Shown here in pieces: positions 2 to 8,468 of a stretch of 34,673 nucleotides of DNA. Source of the DNA: Arthrobacter sp. APC 3897 (GTDB lineage Bacteria > Actinomycetota > Actinomycetes > Actinomycetales > Micrococcaceae). The notes under the pieces were generated by a model. That model was given only the letters and a program-made list of their open reading frames with translations. It searched no databases and had not been told where the DNA came from. The position numbers were made by a program, and so were the translations under genes. The DNA lies in NCBI RefSeq assembly GCF_030407495.1, contig NZ_JASDDG010000039.1:1-34673 (forward strand), read 5' to 3'. Numbering within the stretch: position 1 is the stretch's first letter; every line of letters starts with the position of its first letter.

Positions 2-193
2 GACGGCCATGTGGCCTTCCTGCGCGATGTCATCGACGGGGGGCTCCGCAGGGGAAAGCGGCAGGGAACCGACGTCGTCCCCCTAGCCGCCGCCTCCCTG
101 CCGTCCCCCTCCCCCGCAGTGACAGACGGAAGGTCCCGCGAATACCTCGCATGTAAAGGAACCACCGGGTGTGAGCGGGTAGCCGGCACGTAG
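2..193 (+). CDS. Possible 3' end of an upstream gene (partial)
   Basis: An open frame enters from the left edge and stops with TAG at 191-193. The readable part begins D-G-H-V-A-F-L-R-D-V-I-D-G-G-L-R-R and then becomes a Pro/Ser/Ala-rich tail with no recognisable domain. It could be the C-terminus of a gene belonging to the polysaccharide locus that follows, or chance coding in GC-rich DNA. The other two plus-strand frames and the minus strand also stay open for much of this stretch, so the frame choice is weak. No function can be given. Confidence 0.25.
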   Translation, partial: DGHVAFLRDVIDGGLRRGKRQGTDVVPLAAASLPSPSPAVTDGRSREYLACKGTTGCERVAGT

Positions 194-378: not shown

Positions 379-1932
379 GTGAGAATAGCCCTAATCACCG
401 AAGGCACCTACCCTATGGTCACCGGCGGTGTCAGCACGTGGTGCGACCAACTCCTGACGGGTTTGCCCGAGAATGACTTTGATGTGGTGGCCCTGACCGG
501 CAGCGGTGCCGGAAGGCCGGTATGGGAGGTGCCTCCGAATGTTCGATCGGTCCGGCTGATCCCGGTCTGGGGGTCCTCTGCCTCTCCGCTACGTCCTACC
601 CCCAGGCGCCGCTATTGGGTTGACGCCACCCAATATGAACTTGAGCGCCTGTGGGATGCTGCTCTCGGCTCCGAGCGGCAGGATCCCGTGGGAAGAACGG
701 CCAGCGCCCTGCAGCACCTCGTGGGCATCAGTGACCGGATTGGATTGGCCCGCTCCCTCGCAACCCGTGGATCCGTGGCAGCAATCATTGCCGCTTGGAC
801 CCGGCATCTGGTTAGCGTGGGCGAACCTCCCATCTCGGTCGCGGACGCAGTCATGGCTGCAAGTATCGTGGACCGTGCCCTCGCCCTCCTCGATCACCGG
901 CTGGGAGAGGTGAACGTGGTCCATGCCTCCAGCAACGGGCCCTCGTCGCTGCTTGCGCTGGCACAGTCCTGGCGGCACGGAACACCCATCCTGCTGACTG
1001 AGCACGGGGTATACCTCCGCGAGCGCTACTTGGCGCTTTACGGCGCTCAACTGTCCTGGCCGGTGCGACGCGCCGTAACCGCGTTCCTGCGGCGGTTGTG
1101 CCAAGTGGTCAACGTGCGGGCTCACATGGTCCTTCCCGTGAACCAGTTCAATGCCCGCTGGGAGCGCCGGCTCGGAGCACTTCCGGAGCGGATTTACACC
1201 ATTCCCAACGGAGTTGATCCGTTGACCTTCCGGCCCGTGACCACCGAGCCGGACCTTCCCACCATCAGCTTTGTGGGGCGGATCGACCCCCTGAAGGATT
1301 TGGAAACACTGATATCCGCTTTTGCACTGGTTCGTGAGCGGGTTCCAGATGCCCAACTGCGCATTTTCGGTCCAACGCCCAAAGAAAATGCAGCCTACAA
1401 GGAACTGCTGGTAGCCCTGACGCAGGCTCTCGGCGTGGCAGGGGCAGTCCATTGGGAAGGCCCCAGCCAAGGCAGCCGGCCGGCCATTGAAGCGGGTCAT
1501 GTGGTAGCGCTGTCGAGCGTGTCGGAGGGACTGCCGTTCACTCTGATCGAAGCGATGATGTGCGGACGTGCAACGGTCAACACCGATGTTGGAGGCGTAG
1601 CAGAATGCCTTGACGAGGAGCAGGCCACAGGCATGCTGGTTGCCGCCCGGGATCACGCGGCTTTTGCAGATGCCTGCGTCCTTCTGCTGACCGATCCGCA
1701 GCGCAGAACCGTGATGGGTGCCGCGGCACGGCAGCGGGCACTGTCCCGGTTCACGCTGGAGCGGTGCCTGGCCCGGTACCGGGAGGCCTACCTGGCCGCC
1801 CGTACCGGAAGGCTGCTGAAACCGGAGCAGGACACCCCCGTTTTGGCAACGGTGCCAACAGGCCCGTCCCTGACGGAAACACTCCATGACGGGGCTGCAC
1901 TGGACGCCGCTGCACTGGGGCTGTCCGCATGA
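379..1932 (+). CDS. PelF-like GT4 glycosyltransferase
   Basis: A 517-residue retaining GT-B glycosyltransferase, predicted cytosolic. It should polymerise a sugar nucleotide into exopolysaccharide; in the PelF family the donor is thought to be UDP-GalNAc/GlcNAc. Residues 5-21 carry the PelF-type N-terminal signature (TEGTYP, then GGVSTWCDQL). LLTEHGVYLRER is at about 205-216, PNGVD at 276-280, VGRIDPLKDLETLI at 299-312, and the GT4 E-x7-E pair is E383/E391 within SEGLPFTLIE. TDVGG follows at 402-406. The start is GTG 379, with RBS AAAGGGG 7 nt upstream; a longer form from GTG 355 is possible but unsupported. The stop overlaps the next gene (ATGA). The C-terminal 40 residues after the fold are low-complexity. 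The family assignment is firm; the polymer made is inferred from neighbours. Confidence 0.88.
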   Translation: MRIALITEGTYPMVTGGVSTWCDQLLTGLPENDFDVVALTGSGAGRPVWEVPPNVRSVRLIPVWGSSASPLRPTPRRRYWVDATQYELERLWDAALGSERQDPVGRTASALQHLVGISDRIGLARSLATRGSVAAIIAAWTRHLVSVGEPPISVADAVMAASIVDRALALLDHRLGEVNVVHASSNGPSSLLALAQSWRHGTPILLTEHGVYLRERYLALYGAQLSWPVRRAVTAFLRRLCQVVNVRAHMVLPVNQFNARWERRLGALPERIYTIPNGVDPLTFRPVTTEPDLPTISFVGRIDPLKDLETLISAFALVRERVPDAQLRIFGPTPKENAAYKELLVALTQALGVAGAVHWEGPSQGSRPAIEAGHVVALSSVSEGLPFTLIEAMMCGRATVNTDVGGVAECLDEEQATGMLVAARDHAAFADACVLLLTDPQRRTVMGAAARQRALSRFTLERCLARYREAYLAARTGRLLKPEQDTPVLATVPTGPSLTETLHDGAALDAAALGLSA

Positions 1933-3260
1933 GTGCGGACAGCGTTGCGGTGCCTGGAACAGGCGGACCCGTGGCAGCGTTCTCAAACGACCACGCCGGC
2001 TTCGACGCCGTTGACGTGTACGAGATAACCGCCCGGCTCGAGTCTTCCGGAGTCAGTGACCGTACCGCCCGCAGACGCCATGGAGCCAAAGATGTGTTCG
2101 AGTACGCCCAGTCCCTGGTCCAGGAACGCACAGTGGTCCGGGTCCCCGGCAGCCAGGATTCCTGGATGTCCCGGGACCCGCTGCTGGAGGCCGTCCGGCG
2201 CGGCGTTGTCCTGATCCTGGGTGCCTTTCTCGGCGGTCTCACGGCCACGGTGATGGCGGCCAACACCCGGGAAATCCTCATCGCAGGAATCGGCGCCTGG
2301 ATTATCGGCCAATCGGTATCGGGCATCGTTTGGGCCCAGGCCGGCGCTGGGCGCGTTAACCGGGGAATCGCCCGCGGAACCGGAGCAACCATTCTGGTGA
2401 TCCTGGCCCTGGCCTGTTACACGGCGGTCTCAATGGTCATCCCCGGCCACGATGGAAGCTGGGCCGGACTCCTGATGGCCTGGTGCTGGTACTCCTGCGT
2501 CGTCTCCATGCTCGTGATCCTCGGCCGCTCCCGGTTTTTGCTGGCGGTTCTGGCCGTTGCCGTCACGATTGTTGCCGCGGCGGTGGTTCTAAACCACAAG
2601 ACTGTCACAGCCGTCGTTGTGTCCGTGGCCGTCCTGGTGCTGGCAGCGGTCACCATCGTGCTGGCGATGCACCTGCGGAGCAGCAGCGACCGGCGGTTGT
2701 TCGGACGCGGAGGCTGGCTCGCTGCCGTCGCACCGGCCACCCAGGCTTCCTTCCTTGCCGCTGCCCTGTCACTGGCCCTCACCCGCTTGCCGGACTGGGA
2801 GGGAACAGCGCTTATCGTAGCCACAGTCGTTGCCGCGGCAGCCACGGATCCGGCCCTGGTGCTCATGCGGCAGCGGCTCGTCTGGTCCTCCAGCCGGACG
2901 CCGCTGCTGCGCCACGCAGCCAGGAATGCGCGCTCGCTCACCATGACCATGTCCGCAGCGATAGTAGTTATCTCCGCTTCTGCCTCCACCCTCGTCGTCA
3001 TCTTCCTGGTCGAGGACAACAGGGTTGCCACCACAGTGCTGGTGGCAGCTGCCTTCAGCTCCTTGGCCACTACGTCCACCACGCTGGCCGCCTTCGGACT
3101 CCCCGGCGGCGGAGTGGTTTTCGCCGGTGCCGCTTTCCTGTCGGCGGAGGCCTGGATTGCGGCAGGAAACTCCGCCGGCATACTCGCAGCCCTGGCATTC
3201 CTGGTGGTCGGCATCGGTGTGCTGCTCAGACGCGTCTCCGATCCGAGGACCTACGCGTGA
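1929..3260 (+). CDS. Polytopic membrane protein, candidate polysaccharide exporter (PelG-like role)
   Basis: A 443-residue protein I cannot assign to a named family. Residues 1-90 are hydrophilic and probably cytosolic, with a helical segment around 30-66 rich in charged residues. About twelve hydrophobic segments follow (roughly 92-111, 116-136, 153-171, 178-198, 202-221, 226-247, 264-285, 292-312, 339-361, 366-388, 393-412, 414-433). Length and helix number resemble PelG, the flippase-like partner of PelF, and the gene occupies the position pelG takes next to pelF. I infer that it anchors the glycosyltransferase and moves the polymer across the membrane. It starts at ATG 1929, overlapping the glycosyltransferase stop, and ends in a GTGA overlap with the next gene, so the two are translationally coupled to both neighbours. 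Confidence 0.75.
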   Translation: MSADSVAVPGTGGPVAAFSNDHAGFDAVDVYEITARLESSGVSDRTARRRHGAKDVFEYAQSLVQERTVVRVPGSQDSWMSRDPLLEAVRRGVVLILGAFLGGLTATVMAANTREILIAGIGAWIIGQSVSGIVWAQAGAGRVNRGIARGTGATILVILALACYTAVSMVIPGHDGSWAGLLMAWCWYSCVVSMLVILGRSRFLLAVLAVAVTIVAAAVVLNHKTVTAVVVSVAVLVLAAVTIVLAMHLRSSSDRRLFGRGGWLAAVAPATQASFLAAALSLALTRLPDWEGTALIVATVVAAAATDPALVLMRQRLVWSSSRTPLLRHAARNARSLTMTMSAAIVVISASASTLVVIFLVEDNRVATTVLVAAAFSSLATTSTTLAAFGLPGGGVVFAGAAFLSAEAWIAAGNSAGILAALAFLVVGIGVLLRRVSDPRTYA

Positions 3261-3940
3261 GAAAAGCACAGACAGCCATTCCCTGGTACGTCCATCCGGC
3301 CGAAGCTCCGCAGGAGTGGGACTGGCTGGCCTCCCAGCACCCAGAAGTCGCTTTCGCAGTGGTCAATGTCCACAACGGGCCGGGGCACGGCGACGATGAG
3401 TACTATCCCGCAGCTGTGGCCCGACTGAGGCCGCGGGTACGGCTGCTGGGCTATGTTCGGGTGGACTACGGCAACCGGCCGGTAGCGGACGTTGCCCGGG
3501 ACATCGACACGTGGCGAAGGGTGTACCGGCTCGACGGAATCATGCTCGATGAGCTTCCTTCCCTGCCGCAGAGCCTCGCGCGGTGCACACAGTATGCCGC
3601 TGCCGCACGGGCTGCAGGAATCAGCTTCCTGGCCGCCAACCCCGGCAGGTTTCCGTCGCGGGCGCATCTGAATCTGTTCGATGTCACGGCCGTGTTTGAA
3701 GGAACCGCAAAGGACTACACGGGTTTTCACCGGCCCGACTGGGCGCGCAGCGTTCCGCCGTCCCGGCTGTGGCATCTGGTCTACGGCTGCACCCCCGGCG
3801 ACATCGACGCCGTCCGGATTGCTGCCGGCAACCGTGGAGCCGGCTACGTCTTTGCCACCGACCGGTTCCTTCCCAATCCGTGGCTGGGCCCGTCAACCGC
3901 TGTCTCCGCGCGGTTGACGGGTGAGATGGTTTGTCCGTGA
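3257..3940 (+). CDS. Spherulin-4-like protein (GH135/Sph3 type)
   Basis: A 227-residue protein of the spherulation-specific family 4 type, a TIM-barrel group that includes fungal Sph3, a hydrolase needed for galactosaminogalactan synthesis. Visible hallmarks are IPWYVHP (8-14), VVNVHNGPG (35-43), LLGYVRVDYGNR (63-74), DGIMLDE (93-99) and VFEGT (146-150). The D98-E99 pair and E148 correspond to the acidic active-site positions as I recall them for Sph3. The start is GTG 3257, which overlaps the upstream stop (GTGA) and fits the 4-nt overlaps of this operon. The open frame runs much further upstream, but only as a shadow of the membrane protein gene. No signal peptide or membrane anchor is visible, which is unusual for a polymer-processing enzyme. 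Activity on N-acetylgalactosamine polymer is inferred. Confidence 0.85.
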   Translation: MRKAQTAIPWYVHPAEAPQEWDWLASQHPEVAFAVVNVHNGPGHGDDEYYPAAVARLRPRVRLLGYVRVDYGNRPVADVARDIDTWRRVYRLDGIMLDELPSLPQSLARCTQYAAAARAAGISFLAANPGRFPSRAHLNLFDVTAVFEGTAKDYTGFHRPDWARSVPPSRLWHLVYGCTPGDIDAVRIAAGNRGAGYVFATDRFLPNPWLGPSTAVSARLTGEMVCP

Positions 3941-4779
3941 GCAGACCTCTCCGGCATAACGCACGCCTGGTCCGGGCGTGCGGCGCCGCGTTTATCCCGT
4001 TCTTATTAGGTGCCTGCACGCCCGGCCCCGGTGTTATGGCCGATAACGCCGCGGAAGCACAGGCAGAAGCGGAGTCTGCACGATGGACCCCCCCACCCTC
4101 AGTCAGCTGGCAGTGGCAGCTCAGCGGTGCACTGGATCTGTCGGTGAATGCCGATGTCTATGACATCGACTACGAGAGAACAGCATCTGCCGACATCGAC
4201 GCCCTCAGGGACAGCGGCAGGCACTCGATCTGCTATCTCTCCGCCGGTTCGCTGGAGGGGTTCCGGGGCGATGCGGGAGTGTTTCCGGAGGCGGTTCTGG
4301 GCAACACCATGGAGGGCTGGCCCGACGAGCGATGGCTGGATATCCGGCGTACCGACGTCCTGCTGCCCATCATGGCGGCACGGATGGATCTCTGTGCGGC
4401 GAAAGGGTTTGATGCTGTGGAACCGGACAATGTGGACGGGTATGCCAATGACACGGGTTTCGCTCTGACACCGGAGGATCAGTTGTCCTATAACCGCGCC
4501 GTTGCTGATCTGGCTCATGACCGAGGACTGTCGGTGGGCCTGAAGAACGATCTCGACCAGATTCCCGACCTGGTGGAGACCTTCGACTTTGCGGTCAATG
4601 AAGAGTGTTTCCGGTACCGGGAATGCGAGGCGTACAAACCGTTTACCGACGCGGACAAGGCAGTGCTGCACGTCGAATATGAAGGGCCGCTCGACTTTTG
4701 CGCCGAGTCCCGGCAGATCGGATTATCCTCCCTGCTGAAACCGCTGGATCTGGGGCCGGCAAGGGAAGCCTGCGGGTGA
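3937..4779 (+). CDS. GH114-type endo-alpha-1,4-polygalactosaminidase, lipoprotein
   Basis: A 280-residue exported lipoprotein. A basic N-terminus is followed by a hydrophobic stretch and the lipobox LLGAC, with the acylated cysteine at residue 27. The GH114 hydrolase fold then shows WQWQLSG (58-64), VYDIDYE (74-80), CYLSAGSLE (99-107), GWP.ERWLDIR (127-137), KGFDAVEPDNVDGY (156-169), GLKNDLDQ (201-208) and NEECF (221-225). Acidic residues E162 and D164 in VEPDN and D77/D79 are the likely active-site group. The family cleaves alpha-1,4-linked galactosamine polymers. Acting outside the membrane, it could trim or release the polymer made by this operon. GTG 3937 overlaps the previous stop; TTG 3931 is an alternative with better RBS spacing. 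It is the last gene before a shared terminator. Confidence 0.88.
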   Translation: MSRPLRHNARLVRACGAAFIPFLLGACTPGPGVMADNAAEAQAEAESARWTPPPSVSWQWQLSGALDLSVNADVYDIDYERTASADIDALRDSGRHSICYLSAGSLEGFRGDAGVFPEAVLGNTMEGWPDERWLDIRRTDVLLPIMAARMDLCAAKGFDAVEPDNVDGYANDTGFALTPEDQLSYNRAVADLAHDRGLSVGLKNDLDQIPDLVETFDFAVNEECFRYRECEAYKPFTDADKAVLHVEYEGPLDFCAESRQIGLSSLLKPLDLGPAREACG

Positions 4780-4783
4780 AACA

Positions 4784-4820
4784 CAGCAGGTCCCGTCCGG
4801 CATCCGGACGGGACCTGCTG
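4784..4820. terminator. Bidirectional terminator between the Pel-like operon and pheT
   Basis: A perfect 17-bp inverted repeat (4784-4800 with 4804-4820) has a 3-nt loop. It starts 4 nt after the GH114 stop and lies 21 nt beyond the pheT stop. On the minus strand it is followed by TGTTTCA, so it suits pheT best. On the plus strand the U-tract is poor. Confidence 0.85.
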
Positions 4821-4841: not shown

Positions 4842-7385
4842 TTACCGCTGGACGGCGCCAAAGCGCTCGGCGGCCAGCGCGACGGCGGCGGCACGGGACT
4901 CTGACGCCTCATCGGCGGTCAGCGTCCGGTCCGGAGCACGGAACCGCAGGGCGAAGGCCAGGGACTTGTGCCCCTCCTCGATACCCTTGCCGGCGTAGAC
5001 GTCAAACAGCGAGATGTCTTCGAGCAGCTCCCCCGCGCCTTCGCGCAGAGTCTCCAGCACGGTCTCGGCGGGAATCGATGCCTCCACCACCAGTGCCACA
5101 TCCTGGGTGGTGGCCGGGAACGAGGAAATCGCACGGGCCACAATCACCTCCGGTGCGGCGTCGAACAGGGCGTCGGCGTCGAGCTCCAGCGCCACTGTGC
5201 GCGCCGGCATGTCCCGGGCAGCCAGCAGCTTGGGATGCAGCTCGCCGGCGTAGCCCACGGTCTCGCCGCTGCGCAGTGAGAGCTTGGCCGTGCGGCCCGG
5301 GTGGAAGGCCTGGTGCTCGCCCTGGCTCACCACCAGTTCCACACCCAGCACATCACCCATCAGGCGTGCGGTGTCCACGGCATCGGCCCAGTCCCAGGCA
5401 CGCGGTGCGAAACCGGCTCCGGGCTGCGACTCGTGGCCGGTGAACAGCACGCCGATGTGCAGCGGCTGGTCCGGAACGCCCTCGTACAGGGCATCCAGGA
5501 CTTCCTCGGAGGGCTTCACGCCCAGCGGCGGAATGGACGCCGTGCCCAGCTGCTCACCGGGCAGGAAGACCGAGCCGGATTCAAACAGTGCCAGGTCGCG
5601 GAAACCGCGGGAGAGGTTGCGCTTGGCCACCTCGAACAGTCCCGGCAGCACCGAGGTGCGCAGGTAACCGAACTCCGCGCTGAGCGGATTTGCCAGCTTG
5701 ACCGCGGCAGGCACGGTACCGGCGTCGGGCGTGCCGAAGGTGCTGTTGTCTTCTTCCGTGACGAACGGGTAGGACAGCACCTCCGTCAGGCCGGAAGCGG
5801 CAAGAGCCTGCTGCAGGCGGCGGCGCTGCTGCTGGACCCGGGTCAGGCCGCGGCCGGGAGGGGCGGTGGGCAGGGTGGACGGAATGTGCTCGTAGCCCAC
5901 CAGGCGGATGATTTCCTCGGTGAGGTCCTCGCGGGTTTCCAGGTCCGTGCGCCAGCTCGGCGGAGTCACGGAGTAGCCGGCAGCCGTTTCCGCCACCTCT
6001 GCACCCAGGTCACGCAGTGTTCCGGTGATCTGGTCCTTGCTGAAGTCGTAGCCGATCAGCTTGGCGGCGAAGTCCGCAGGCAGGTCGATGGCCTTGGACT
6101 CGGGCCTGGTCCCGACGTCGGTCGCTGACGCATCGGCGGTGCCGCCGGCCAGTTCCACCAGCAGATCAACGGCACGCTGGGCCGCGATGTCCGCGACATA
6201 CCAGTCAACACCGCGCTCGAAGCGCTTGGACGCCTCCGAGGGGAGCTTGTGGCGGCGGCGCGAGCGTCCAATCGAGACTTCCTCGAAGTGCGCGGCCTCG
6301 ATCAGGACGTTCTGCGTCGCGTCGGAGACCTCGGTGGCGTTGCCGCCCATGACGCCGGCAATGCCAATGGCACCTGAGCCGTCAGTGATCAGCAGATCCT
6401 CGGGGTCCAGGGTGCGGACCTTGTCATCCAGGGTCTTCAGCGTTTCGCCCGGGGCGGCGCGGCGGACCACGATTTCGCCGGTGAGCTTGTCCAGGTCGTA
6501 GAAGTGCAGCGGCTGGCCAAGCTCGAGCATCACGTAGTTGGAGATGTCCACTACCAGCGAGATGGACCGCATTCCGGCCAGGCGCAGGCGCGAAGACATC
6601 CACGGCGGCGTCGGGCGGGTCGGATCCACGCCGCGGACGGTGCGGGCCACGAAGCGGTCGCAGCCGGCCTTGCCGTAGATCGGGGCGTCGTCGGCCAGGC
6701 GCACCGGGTACCCGGCGCCGTCGGCTTCCGGAACCTCCACTGCGGCGGCGGGGTCGGTGAACGTGGTGCCGGTCGCGTGGGCATACTCGCGGGCAGCGCC
6801 GCGGATGGAGAAGACGTAGCCGCGGTCCGGGGTGACGTTGATTTCAGCAGCCTGGTCGTAGAGGCCAAGCAGCTCCATCGCGTCGGTGCCGACCTCGGGA
6901 TCGAGCCCCAGGGTGGAGAGCACCAGGATGCCGTCGTGGTCTTCGCCGATGCCCAGTTCGCGGACGGAGGCGATCATGCCGGCGGAGACGTGGCCGTAGG
7001 TCTTGCGCGGGCTGATCCGGAAATCTCCGGGCAGCACGGCGCCGGGCAGGGTGACAACAACCTTGTCCCCCACCTCGAAGTTGTGCGCACCGCACACGAT
7101 GCCCTGCACCCCGGACGGGTCGATACCGTCACCGGTGAGCGTCTGCTCGGCACCCTCGGGCACCACGCGCACGGAGCACCAGTTGATGGTCTTGCCGTTC
7201 TTCTGCGGCTCGGGCTCCTTGGAGAGCACCTGGCCTACAACGATCGGGCCCGAGAGCTCGTCGGCGGGACGGTGGACGTCCTCTTCCTCCAGGCCAACCT
7301 TGACCAGCTCTGCCATGACGTCTTCGGCGGTTGCGTCCGCCGGAACCTGGGCATACTCGCGCAGCCAGGAAAGTGGGATTCTCAC
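4842..7385 (-). CDS. pheT: Phenylalanyl-tRNA synthetase beta subunit
   Basis: An 847-residue cytosolic subunit of the alpha2-beta2 enzyme that charges tRNA-Phe. The N-terminus (MRIPLSWLREY) is the standard PheT opening. An EMAP-II-like tRNA-binding domain spans about 40-155 (VVGQVL, VCGAHNF, MIASVRELGIGEDHDGI). The B3/4 editing domain lies around 215-390 (PLHFYDLDKL, IAGVMGG), the B5 domain around 410-480, a synthetase-like core follows, and a ferredoxin-fold anticodon-binding domain ends the protein (SSFPATTQDVALVV, LTFA-type ending with RTLTADEAS). Length is normal for actinobacteria. The GTG start directly abuts the pheS stop (TAAGTG), with GGAG in the end of pheS as RBS, so the two are co-translated. 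Termination is at the 4784-4820 hairpin. Confidence 0.98.
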   Translation of the reverse strand: MRIPLSWLREYAQVPADATAEDVMAELVKVGLEEEDVHRPADELSGPIVVGQVLSKEPEPQKNGKTINWCSVRVVPEGAEQTLTGDGIDPSGVQGIVCGAHNFEVGDKVVVTLPGAVLPGDFRISPRKTYGHVSAGMIASVRELGIGEDHDGILVLSTLGLDPEVGTDAMELLGLYDQAAEINVTPDRGYVFSIRGAAREYAHATGTTFTDPAAAVEVPEADGAGYPVRLADDAPIYGKAGCDRFVARTVRGVDPTRPTPPWMSSRLRLAGMRSISLVVDISNYVMLELGQPLHFYDLDKLTGEIVVRRAAPGETLKTLDDKVRTLDPEDLLITDGSGAIGIAGVMGGNATEVSDATQNVLIEAAHFEEVSIGRSRRRHKLPSEASKRFERGVDWYVADIAAQRAVDLLVELAGGTADASATDVGTRPESKAIDLPADFAAKLIGYDFSKDQITGTLRDLGAEVAETAAGYSVTPPSWRTDLETREDLTEEIIRLVGYEHIPSTLPTAPPGRGLTRVQQQRRRLQQALAASGLTEVLSYPFVTEEDNSTFGTPDAGTVPAAVKLANPLSAEFGYLRTSVLPGLFEVAKRNLSRGFRDLALFESGSVFLPGEQLGTASIPPLGVKPSEEVLDALYEGVPDQPLHIGVLFTGHESQPGAGFAPRAWDWADAVDTARLMGDVLGVELVVSQGEHQAFHPGRTAKLSLRSGETVGYAGELHPKLLAARDMPARTVALELDADALFDAAPEVIVARAISSFPATTQDVALVVEASIPAETVLETLREGAGELLEDISLFDVYAGKGIEEGHKSLAFALRFRAPDRTLTADEASESRAAAVALAAERFGAVQR

Positions 7386-8468
7386 TTAGATCTCCATCCC
7401 GAAGTGTTCGCTGAAACGTACATCGCCCTCGATCATGTCGCGCATGTCCCCTACTTCGTTGCGGAACATCAGTGCGCGCTCAATACCCATGCCGAAGGCA
7501 AAACCTGAATAGACCTCGGGATCAATGCCGGCCGCGCGGAGCACGTTCGGATTGACCATGCCGCAGCCGCCCCACTCAATCCAGCGCGGGCCGCCCTTGG
7601 CACCCGGGTGCCAGATGTCCAGCTCGGCACTGGGCTCGGTGAACGGGAAGTAGTTCGGGCGCAGGCGTACCTTGGCTTCGTCACCGAAAAGCACGCGGGT
7701 GAAGTGCTCCAGCGTGCCCACGAGGTCCGCCATGGTCAGGCCCTTGTCGATGGCCAGGCCCTCGAACTGGTGGAAGACCGGGGTGTGCGTGGCATCGAGC
7801 TCATCCGTGCGGAACACCTTGCCCGGGCACAGGACGTAGATCGGCAGCTCGCGTTCGAGCATGGAGCGCACCTGAACCGGCGAGGTGTGCGTGCGCATCA
7901 CCAGGTGGGCTTCGGGCGGCTCAACGAAGAAGGTGTCCTGCATTTCACGGGCCGGGTGGTCCGGTTTGAAGTTCAGTGCGTCGAAGTTGAACCACTCGGA
8001 TTCAACTTCCGGCCCCTCGGCAATTTCCCAGCCCATGCCCACGAAGACGTCTATAACGCGGTCCTGCAGGGTGGACAGCGGGTGGCGGCCGCCCATGCGG
8101 CGGCGGCGCGGGGCCGCGGTGACATCCACCGCTTCCTCGACCAGGATCCGCGCGTCGCGCTCTGCTTCCAGCTCCACGGTGCGGGCTGCGAGTGCAGCAT
8201 TGATGCGTCCGCGGGCGGGGCCAACGAGCTTGCCGGCGGCGGACTTCTGGTCCTTGGGGAGGGAACCGATGGTGCGGTTGGCCAGGCTCAGCGGCGACTT
8301 GTCGCCGGCGACGGCGATGCGGACGTCTTTGAGGCCGTCCAGATCCGCTGCGGCGGCAATGGCTGCGAGCGCCTGCTCGACGGCGGCGCCAACGGCCGCT
8401 TCATCGAGCGGGTTGGGCGGTTCGGGGACGGTGTCTGGGGAATGGGTCCCCGGTATGGAGTTCGACAT
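7386..8468 (-). CDS. pheS: Phenylalanyl-tRNA synthetase alpha subunit
   Basis: A 360-residue catalytic subunit. An N-terminal coiled-coil tRNA-binding arm (about 20-110) precedes the class II synthetase core. Motif 2 is visible as [20 protein letters not shown], and motif 3 near the C-terminus as [24 protein letters not shown] marks the usual start of the core. The ATG at 8466-8468 fits the family length; upstream on the minus strand a modest AGGTAAG serves as RBS. pheS leads the pheST pair. I looked in the 265-nt upstream spacer for a T-box or a Phe-rich leader peptide and found neither. Confidence 0.98.

Follow-up and report, generated by a model that had tools for sequence, protein, structure and literature searches.

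A four-gene Arthrobacter operon that probably makes a Pel- or galactosaminogalactan-like exopolysaccharide

The described systems closest to the locus studied here come from both fungi and bacteria. The fungal galactosaminogalactan (GAG) cluster contains uge3, gtb3, sph3, ega3 and agd3 (PMC7229062, PMC11356417), it has been suggested that fungi acquired this cluster from bacteria (PMC7229062), and the fungal Sph3 protein is reported to carry an N-terminal transmembrane domain (PMC11356417). According to the passages on agd3 in Bamford et al. (2020, PMC7229062), these genes lie in or near operons in 30 of the 35 bacterial species of their tree. All of the identified bacterial agd3 operons encode a cytoplasmic glycosyltransferase (GT) and a multi-spanning membrane protein, GH114 is a highly consistent member, and some of the operons from Actinobacteria include Spherulin-4 (PMC7229062). 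Gram-positive bacteria also host the Pel operon, pelDEADAFG, as well as operons with PelF and PelG alone (PMC7112168, PMC7112194), and a 12-helix MOP-type fold has been reported for PelG (PMC13254593). Here we describe a compact relative of these systems, a four-gene operon of Arthrobacter sp. APC 3897 (assembly GCF_030407495.1), found on contig NZ_JASDDG010000039.1. The whole contig of 34,673 bases was analysed and is referred to as the window; sequence to its left cannot be read in this genome.

We consider it probable that this locus of a soil bacterium makes an exopolysaccharide of the Pel/GAG kind that contains N-acetylgalactosamine (GalNAc); polymers of this kind hold bacterial and fungal biofilms together. 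The original prediction of a GalNAc-type polymer is supported by family matches, by conserved linkage and by catalytic acids that have been kept; the donor sugar and the enzyme activities of the operon are what we infer from these. The four genes lie on the + strand as originally described, with a 4-nt overlap at all three junctions:

379..1932, + strand: PelF-like GT4 (DUF3492 plus GT4), the predicted polymerase, from family matches; its EX7E motif, EGLPFTLIE, is at residues 383-391
1929..3260, + strand: multi-helix membrane protein (MP), the predicted exporter and GT partner, from hydropathy and natural GT-MP fusions
3257..3940, + strand: leaderless Spherulin-4/GH135 (Sph3-like) protein, called Sph below, a predicted cytoplasmic alpha-1,4-N-acetylgalactosaminidase with D98, E99 and E148
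3937..4779, + strand: GH114 (Ega3-like) endo-alpha-1,4-galactosaminidase, a predicted lipoprotein with an LLGAC lipobox and the pair D164/E222

Mechanical open reading frame (ORF) starts lie upstream of those used for the GT (355) and GH114 (3931) genes; for the GT, the first residue given by the start at 379 is also where the tblastn matches in relatives start.

The predicted families of the GT, Sph and GH114 proteins are confirmed by Pfam and NCBIfam matches and by solved structures. The GT matches DUF3492 at 149 bits (cut-off 23.3) and NCBIfam PelF at 165 bits (cut-off 100). Sph matches Spherulin4 at 118 bits (cut-off 30.2) and the solved Sph3 structure 5c5g at 2e-14, while the GH114 protein scores 284 bits (cut-off 27) and matches Ega3 (6ojb) at 4e-51. 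The residues D98, E99 and E148 of Sph align with the Sph3 active site, and across 58 Sph rows they are conserved in 58, 47 and 57 rows, respectively. This alignment fits Asp166/Glu222 of Sph3, where Asp166 is what we take to be the number of the first acid. The published acids are given as Asp196/Glu222 (PMC12054363). Likewise, D164/E222 of the GH114 protein align with the Ega3 catalytic pair D189/E247 (PMC12054363), with the same spacing of 58 residues.

The predicted gene neighbourhood is conserved. MP is found in 11 of the 29 genomes of the genus, and the order GT-MP-Sph-GH114 is found in all 11 of these carriers, the window included, as well as in one genome of another genus of the same family (L037) and one of another family of the same order (L042). 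Within the family, identity to the window is 74-90% for GT, 63-87% for MP, 61-79% for Sph and 60-75% for GH114; in L042 it is 49%, 27%, 43% and 45%. GT and MP overlap by 4 nt in all ten other carriers as well as in L037, and so do MP and Sph except in L047 (L006 and L049 in this comparison are one genome). For all four genes dN/dS, the ratio of nonsynonymous to synonymous substitution rates, is 0.10-0.21 (12 gene comparisons against three relatives). As the genes are conserved together and have these low ratios, the set is no chance arrangement. A search with the Sph protein returned two loci, from Arthrobacter sp. zg-Y769 and A. gandavensis, and among 44 matches to MP all that show an organism name are Arthrobacter. 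In a sample of 120 genomes of the family, four matched Sph; one of the four is the genome of the window, and another, G045 (58 residues, E 8e-4), was set aside as probably spurious. At L052 (4652-7936) about 3.3 kb with four other called genes lie between Sph and GH114.

A simple hydropathy scan of MP gives about 12 hydrophobic segments (the list has 12 stretches, with some overlap, counted as 14), in line with the roughly 12-helix protein originally predicted, and about 90 N-terminal residues precede the first segment. MP has no Pfam or NCBIfam family match. Its position beside the GT and its number of helices are similar to those of PelG, and the GT passes the NCBIfam PelF cut-off, as would be expected if MP were a fast-evolving PelG and the locus a reduced, canonical pel operon. 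We judge this distinctly unlikely. PF16933 (PelG) has no match to the MP of the window or of L040, whereas a PelG from the same phylum (L039) scores 464 bits; hhalign aligns MP and PelG with a probability of 0.1% over 26 columns, using a shallow PelG profile of 4 rows, of which one genome supplied two; PelG is found in 0 of the 29 genus genomes; and GT trees, described below, split the two partner classes. MP is, by these profile comparisons, a member of an unnamed family that is not detectably PelG, and equating it with PelG is not borne out.

The GT itself separates from the PelF proteins that have PelG as a partner. It scores 165 bits with the PelF model against 507 bits for the PelG-partnered PelF of L039. 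In a tree of 79 GT rows (an 85-row set, chosen after removal of rows that covered the GT poorly, minus six second copies of loci already included) five PelG-partnered GTs and the GT of L096 stand opposite all of the MP-partnered or MP-fused GTs, with support of 100 in the Shimodaira-Hasegawa-like approximate likelihood ratio test (SH-aLRT), and the window GT is on the far side of this branch from PelG-partnered PelF. A smaller tree (85 minus 12 rows; also without L006, L107, L075, L078, P0108 and P0128) has the same PelG split; both trees are quick searches with no bootstrap and with long-branch warnings.

The GT of L096, whose very long branch groups with the rows that have PelG as partner, comes from the window's own genome (G000:C38, L096:6963-11298). 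It is a second DUF3492 GT of 572 aa that scores 243 bits with PelF, and it adjoins a putative glycosyl hydrolase of the GHL15 family and a 490-aa multi-helix protein that no Pfam family matches over its cut-off. From its gene content, L096 is a second, different polysaccharide locus in this genome.

GT and MP are paired, both by adjacency and by natural fusion. Scoring 8000 candidates gave 65 long GT-containing proteins, none of them fungal among the names shown, although many rows are nameless; 45 have a strong GT domain and in 29 of these an MP match follows the GT, a proportion that comes from a sample picked by length and is not a natural frequency. In one fusion, P0102, the MP match is partial and no hydrophobic segment comes after it, and several other fusions cover part of MP. 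The MP profile matches none of 28 reversed C-terminal halves and none of 280 shuffled ones. Within the loci, where the GT, MP, Sph, GH114 and Agd3-like labels come from our own hidden Markov models built from few rows, it matches 27 of 55 called multi-helix proteins (a count that includes profile members and one genome twice), 26 of which adjoin a GT, while the other (L103) is one gene off. Given the adjacency, the fusions and the split in the GT tree, we therefore regard GT and MP as a dedicated pair and, by analogy, MP probably exports the chain.

The wider phylum shows how closely this GT is associated with Sph. In a sample of 396 genomes, matches over cut-off were found for DUF3492 in 26 genomes, for PelG in 7 and for Spherulin4 in 11. 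A DUF3492 GT is present in 10 of the 11 Spherulin4 genomes against 16 of the 385 others (Fisher 2e-12), and 15 of the 18 Spherulin4 places are within 10 kb of one, the other three being G470:C13 and two in the fragmented genome G489. Conversely, the DUF3492 neighbourhoods L096-L100, L103 and L110 show no Sph, therefore the GT is not always accompanied by it. The related loci have several forms. One consists of GT, MP, a short-chain dehydrogenase/reductase (SDR) gene and Sph (L101, L102, L107, L108) and another of an Agd3-like gene, GT, MP and Sph (L104, L105), with GH114 added in L042 and L106. A longer form runs Agd3-like, GT, MP, SDR, nucleotidyltransferase, a second SDR-type gene and Sph (L040, L041, L043, L109); L109 is this form plus GH114, and L111 is this form without an Agd3-like call. 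Finally, the Rubrobacter-like locus L039 encodes a GAF and GGDEF protein, a further gene, PelF (507 bits), PelG (464 bits) and Agd3_CE (94 bits), with Sph on the other strand; the class labels 'Rubrobacter-like' (f18) and 'Streptomyces-like' (f5) are inferred.

The Sph proteins that accompany MP have no leader. The first strand motif starts within about 30 residues of the given start in 54 of 57 homologues, the remaining three being two fragments and one protein with a longer, non-hydrophobic N terminus. In-frame stops are found 13 (L042) and 28 (L047) codons upstream of this motif, and in several loci (e.g. L104, L105, L109 and L111) the Sph start overlaps the preceding gene by 4 nt; the L108 gene call is too short to judge. 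MP-type Sph therefore appears to be a cytoplasmic protein, located alongside the GT, where it may act on the nascent chain by trimming, release or clearance. The PelG-linked Sph of L039, the one such locus looked at, has a signal-like N terminus.

The GH114 protein, in turn, is predicted from its LLGAC lipobox to be a lipoprotein, as first proposed. A lipobox-like motif after a hydrophobic stretch was seen by eye in 14 of 16 GH114 sequences, 10 of them near the consensus; the motif is lacking in L042 and L122. GH114 is present in all 11 MP carriers and in 3 of the 18 non-carriers of the genus. In two of these non-carriers (L120 in G522 and L122 in G535) it lies at the same site, between pheT and a quinone-oxidoreductase-like gene, and no GT, MP or Sph was found in the 19-kb stretch; the stretch of the third has neither GT, MP, Sph nor the pheT flank. 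(The names pheS, pheT, quinone oxidoreductase and those of the arg genes were assigned by reading the sequences alone.) L120 and L122 could be remnants of a decayed operon, or a genotype that has the depolymerase alone. The persistence of GH114 alone at this site also fits a locus that mainly attacks or feeds on the galactosamine polymers of others, such as fungal GAG, with an unrelated GT product. We regard this explanation as very improbable: an Sph with no export signal is ill-suited to be an attack enzyme, and GT and MP are under purifying selection and coupled by their overlap.

Returning to synthesis of a GalNAc-containing polymer, neither sugar supply nor deacetylation is provided by the operon. 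No Uge3-type epimerase was found among the four genes (the whole genome was not searched), therefore UDP-GalNAc would come from enzymes encoded elsewhere. Nor do the four genes include a deacetylase, and the search of the genus for one covered the Agd3-like and CE4 families. An Agd3 (CE18)-like gene was found in 0 of the 29 genus genomes using a nine-row profile, A2; in a check on five genomes this profile matched all three in which the gene was known beforehand, including two that are not represented in the profile, and matched nothing in G000 and G522. CE4 (PF01522) was considered as the missing deacetylase and rejected as unlinked to the operon, since it occurs in 7 of the 11 carriers and also in 7 of the 18 non-carriers (Fisher p 0.26; the G532 match is barely over the cut-off). 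Four of the 11 carriers have neither an Agd3-like gene nor CE4. As the operon encodes no deacetylase, the 29 genus genomes yield no Agd3-like gene and these carriers lack CE4 as well, the 'cationic' polymer of the original prediction is not supported. The polymer may be largely acetylated, or may be deacetylated by an enzyme not found here.

Agd3-like genes do occur in or near the related operons L039-L043, L099, L104, L105, L106 and L109. The label rests on clustering and alignment with L039 (28-33% identity) for L042 and L040, because the former scores 18.4 bits against a Pfam cut-off of 27.6 and the latter has no Pfam match. Two further observations concern this gene. Part of an Agd3-like domain is joined to a GT domain in the 815-aa protein P0131, which is either a further link between deacetylation and GT or an artefact of gene calling. 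At G412:C5:92968-94974 an Agd3-like gene is in pieces with in-frame stops, either broken or misassembled; a GH114 gene, two matches to GT and a weak one to MP lie nearby.

Several observations weigh against a GalNAc-type polymer. Ega3, the best-known GH114 member, cuts deacetylated stretches of galactosamine (GalN), an activity hard to reconcile with the lack of a deacetylase, and a more distant solved relative, 9ep6, is labelled an alpha-galactosidase; on the other hand, the presence of GH114 argues for some GalN in the polymer. In Sph, 11 of the 58 rows have another residue in place of E99, the second acid of the pair. The much lower PelF score of the GT means that its sugar could differ, GH114 is not strictly tied to synthesis as it stands alone in two non-carriers, and MP has no characterised homologue, which makes export a guess.

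Could the operon then make a different, non-GalNAc polysaccharide, the donor of the GT4 having drifted and both hydrolases acting on that polymer? The separation of the GT from PelG-partnered PelF, its lower score, a membrane partner that is not detectably PelG and the missing epimerase all point this way. Against this, the characterised members of GH135 and GH114 act on GalNAc or GalN polymers (PMC12054363), both families are linked to the GT here with their catalytic acids intact, and sister operons add an Agd3-like protein. We therefore think a non-GalNAc product unlikely. The sister operons, with their Agd3-like protein and sugar-nucleotide genes, likewise support the GalNAc-type product that we prefer.

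For such a polymer we propose the following route. The DUF3492 GT4 would build the polymer at the membrane's inner face, as judged from PelF, and MP, as its dedicated partner, would pass the chain outward, doing the job of PelG without detectable relatedness to it. Cytoplasmic Sph would act on nascent or stalled chains by trimming, releasing or clearing them, and the GH114 lipoprotein, placed outside by its lipobox and assigned its activity by family, would release or remodel the exported polymer. A more specific version, which we hold tentatively and consider somewhat doubtful, is that the core of the system comprises a GT, an exporter of an unnamed family and, inside the cell, a GH135 enzyme that edits or releases the chain before or during export, in contrast to the remodelling outside the cell that is assumed for fungal Sph3, and that the Arthrobacter polymer is made without Agd3-type deacetylation.

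Outside of the four genes, the window contains two further features next to the operon:

2..193, + strand: tail of an ORF, truncated at the contig end, upstream of the operon
4784..4820, no strand assigned: perfect 17-bp hairpin that separates the GH114 stop from the convergent gene at 4842-7385, which reads as pheT; -39.7 kcal/mol, z -6.8

The first residues of the 2..193 ORF resemble, in a short match made by eye, the last residues of an ORF of 103 aa that precedes the L045 operon (7115-7426, reverse-complement coordinates) and is regulator-like by reading. The hairpin is a possible shared terminator of GH114 and the convergent gene; it is absent from the list of a terminator scan, which demands a T-run. 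A sigma-70 scan returned no promoters. The fetched stretch includes pheT in 7 of the 11 carriers, the window included, and in 7 of the 10 other carriers a quinone-oxidoreductase-like gene and an apparent arginine-biosynthesis block lie upstream.

If our interpretation is true, there are at least two types of bacterial GalNAc-polymer synthase, PelF with PelG and a GT working with, or fused to, an unnamed membrane family, and the Pel/GAG machinery of actinobacteria extends past the published pel operons. The suggested bacterial origin of the fungal GAG cluster (PMC7229062) would become testable, and a cytoplasmic GH135 would alter the model of Sph3-type hydrolases in synthesis. Carriers with neither CE4 nor an Agd3-like gene offer a test of whether such polymers need deacetylation to work.

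How, then, does this locus compare with known systems? The fungal GAG cluster shares with it a glycosyltransferase, an Sph3 homologue and an Ega3 homologue, and differs in having agd3 and uge3, which are not among the four genes of the window (PMC7229062, PMC11356417); unlike fungal Sph3, for which a transmembrane domain is reported (PMC11356417), the bacterial Sph has no leader. With Gram-positive Pel (PMC7112168, PMC7112194), itself a GalNAc-type polymer, the operon shares the pairing of a GT4 with a multi-helix membrane partner; the GT4 here is of PelF type by its score over the cut-off, but lies across the tree from PelG-partnered PelF, and the partner is not detectably PelG. GH135 and GH114 are found instead of PelD, PelE and PelA/PelADA, which are absent from the four genes, the only part of the genome covered by this search. 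No title among the open-licence PMC matches listed describes an Arthrobacter operon of this kind. The bacterial agd3 operons (PMC7229062) have a GT, a multi-spanning membrane protein, GH114 and, in some Actinobacteria, Spherulin-4 in common with it, but the window operon has no agd3, and no Agd3-like gene was found in the 29 genus genomes. The 'distinct Gram-positive route' originally proposed is thus in part prior art as an operon type; the passages of PMC7229062 on these operons do not mention a variant without a deacetylase, a leaderless Sph, a GT-MP fusion or a separation from PelG. The locus represents a form, lacking a deacetylase, of an actinobacterial operon type that has been described in part, and it combines a GH135 enzyme that appears to be cytoplasmic with a membrane partner in which PelG is not detectable.

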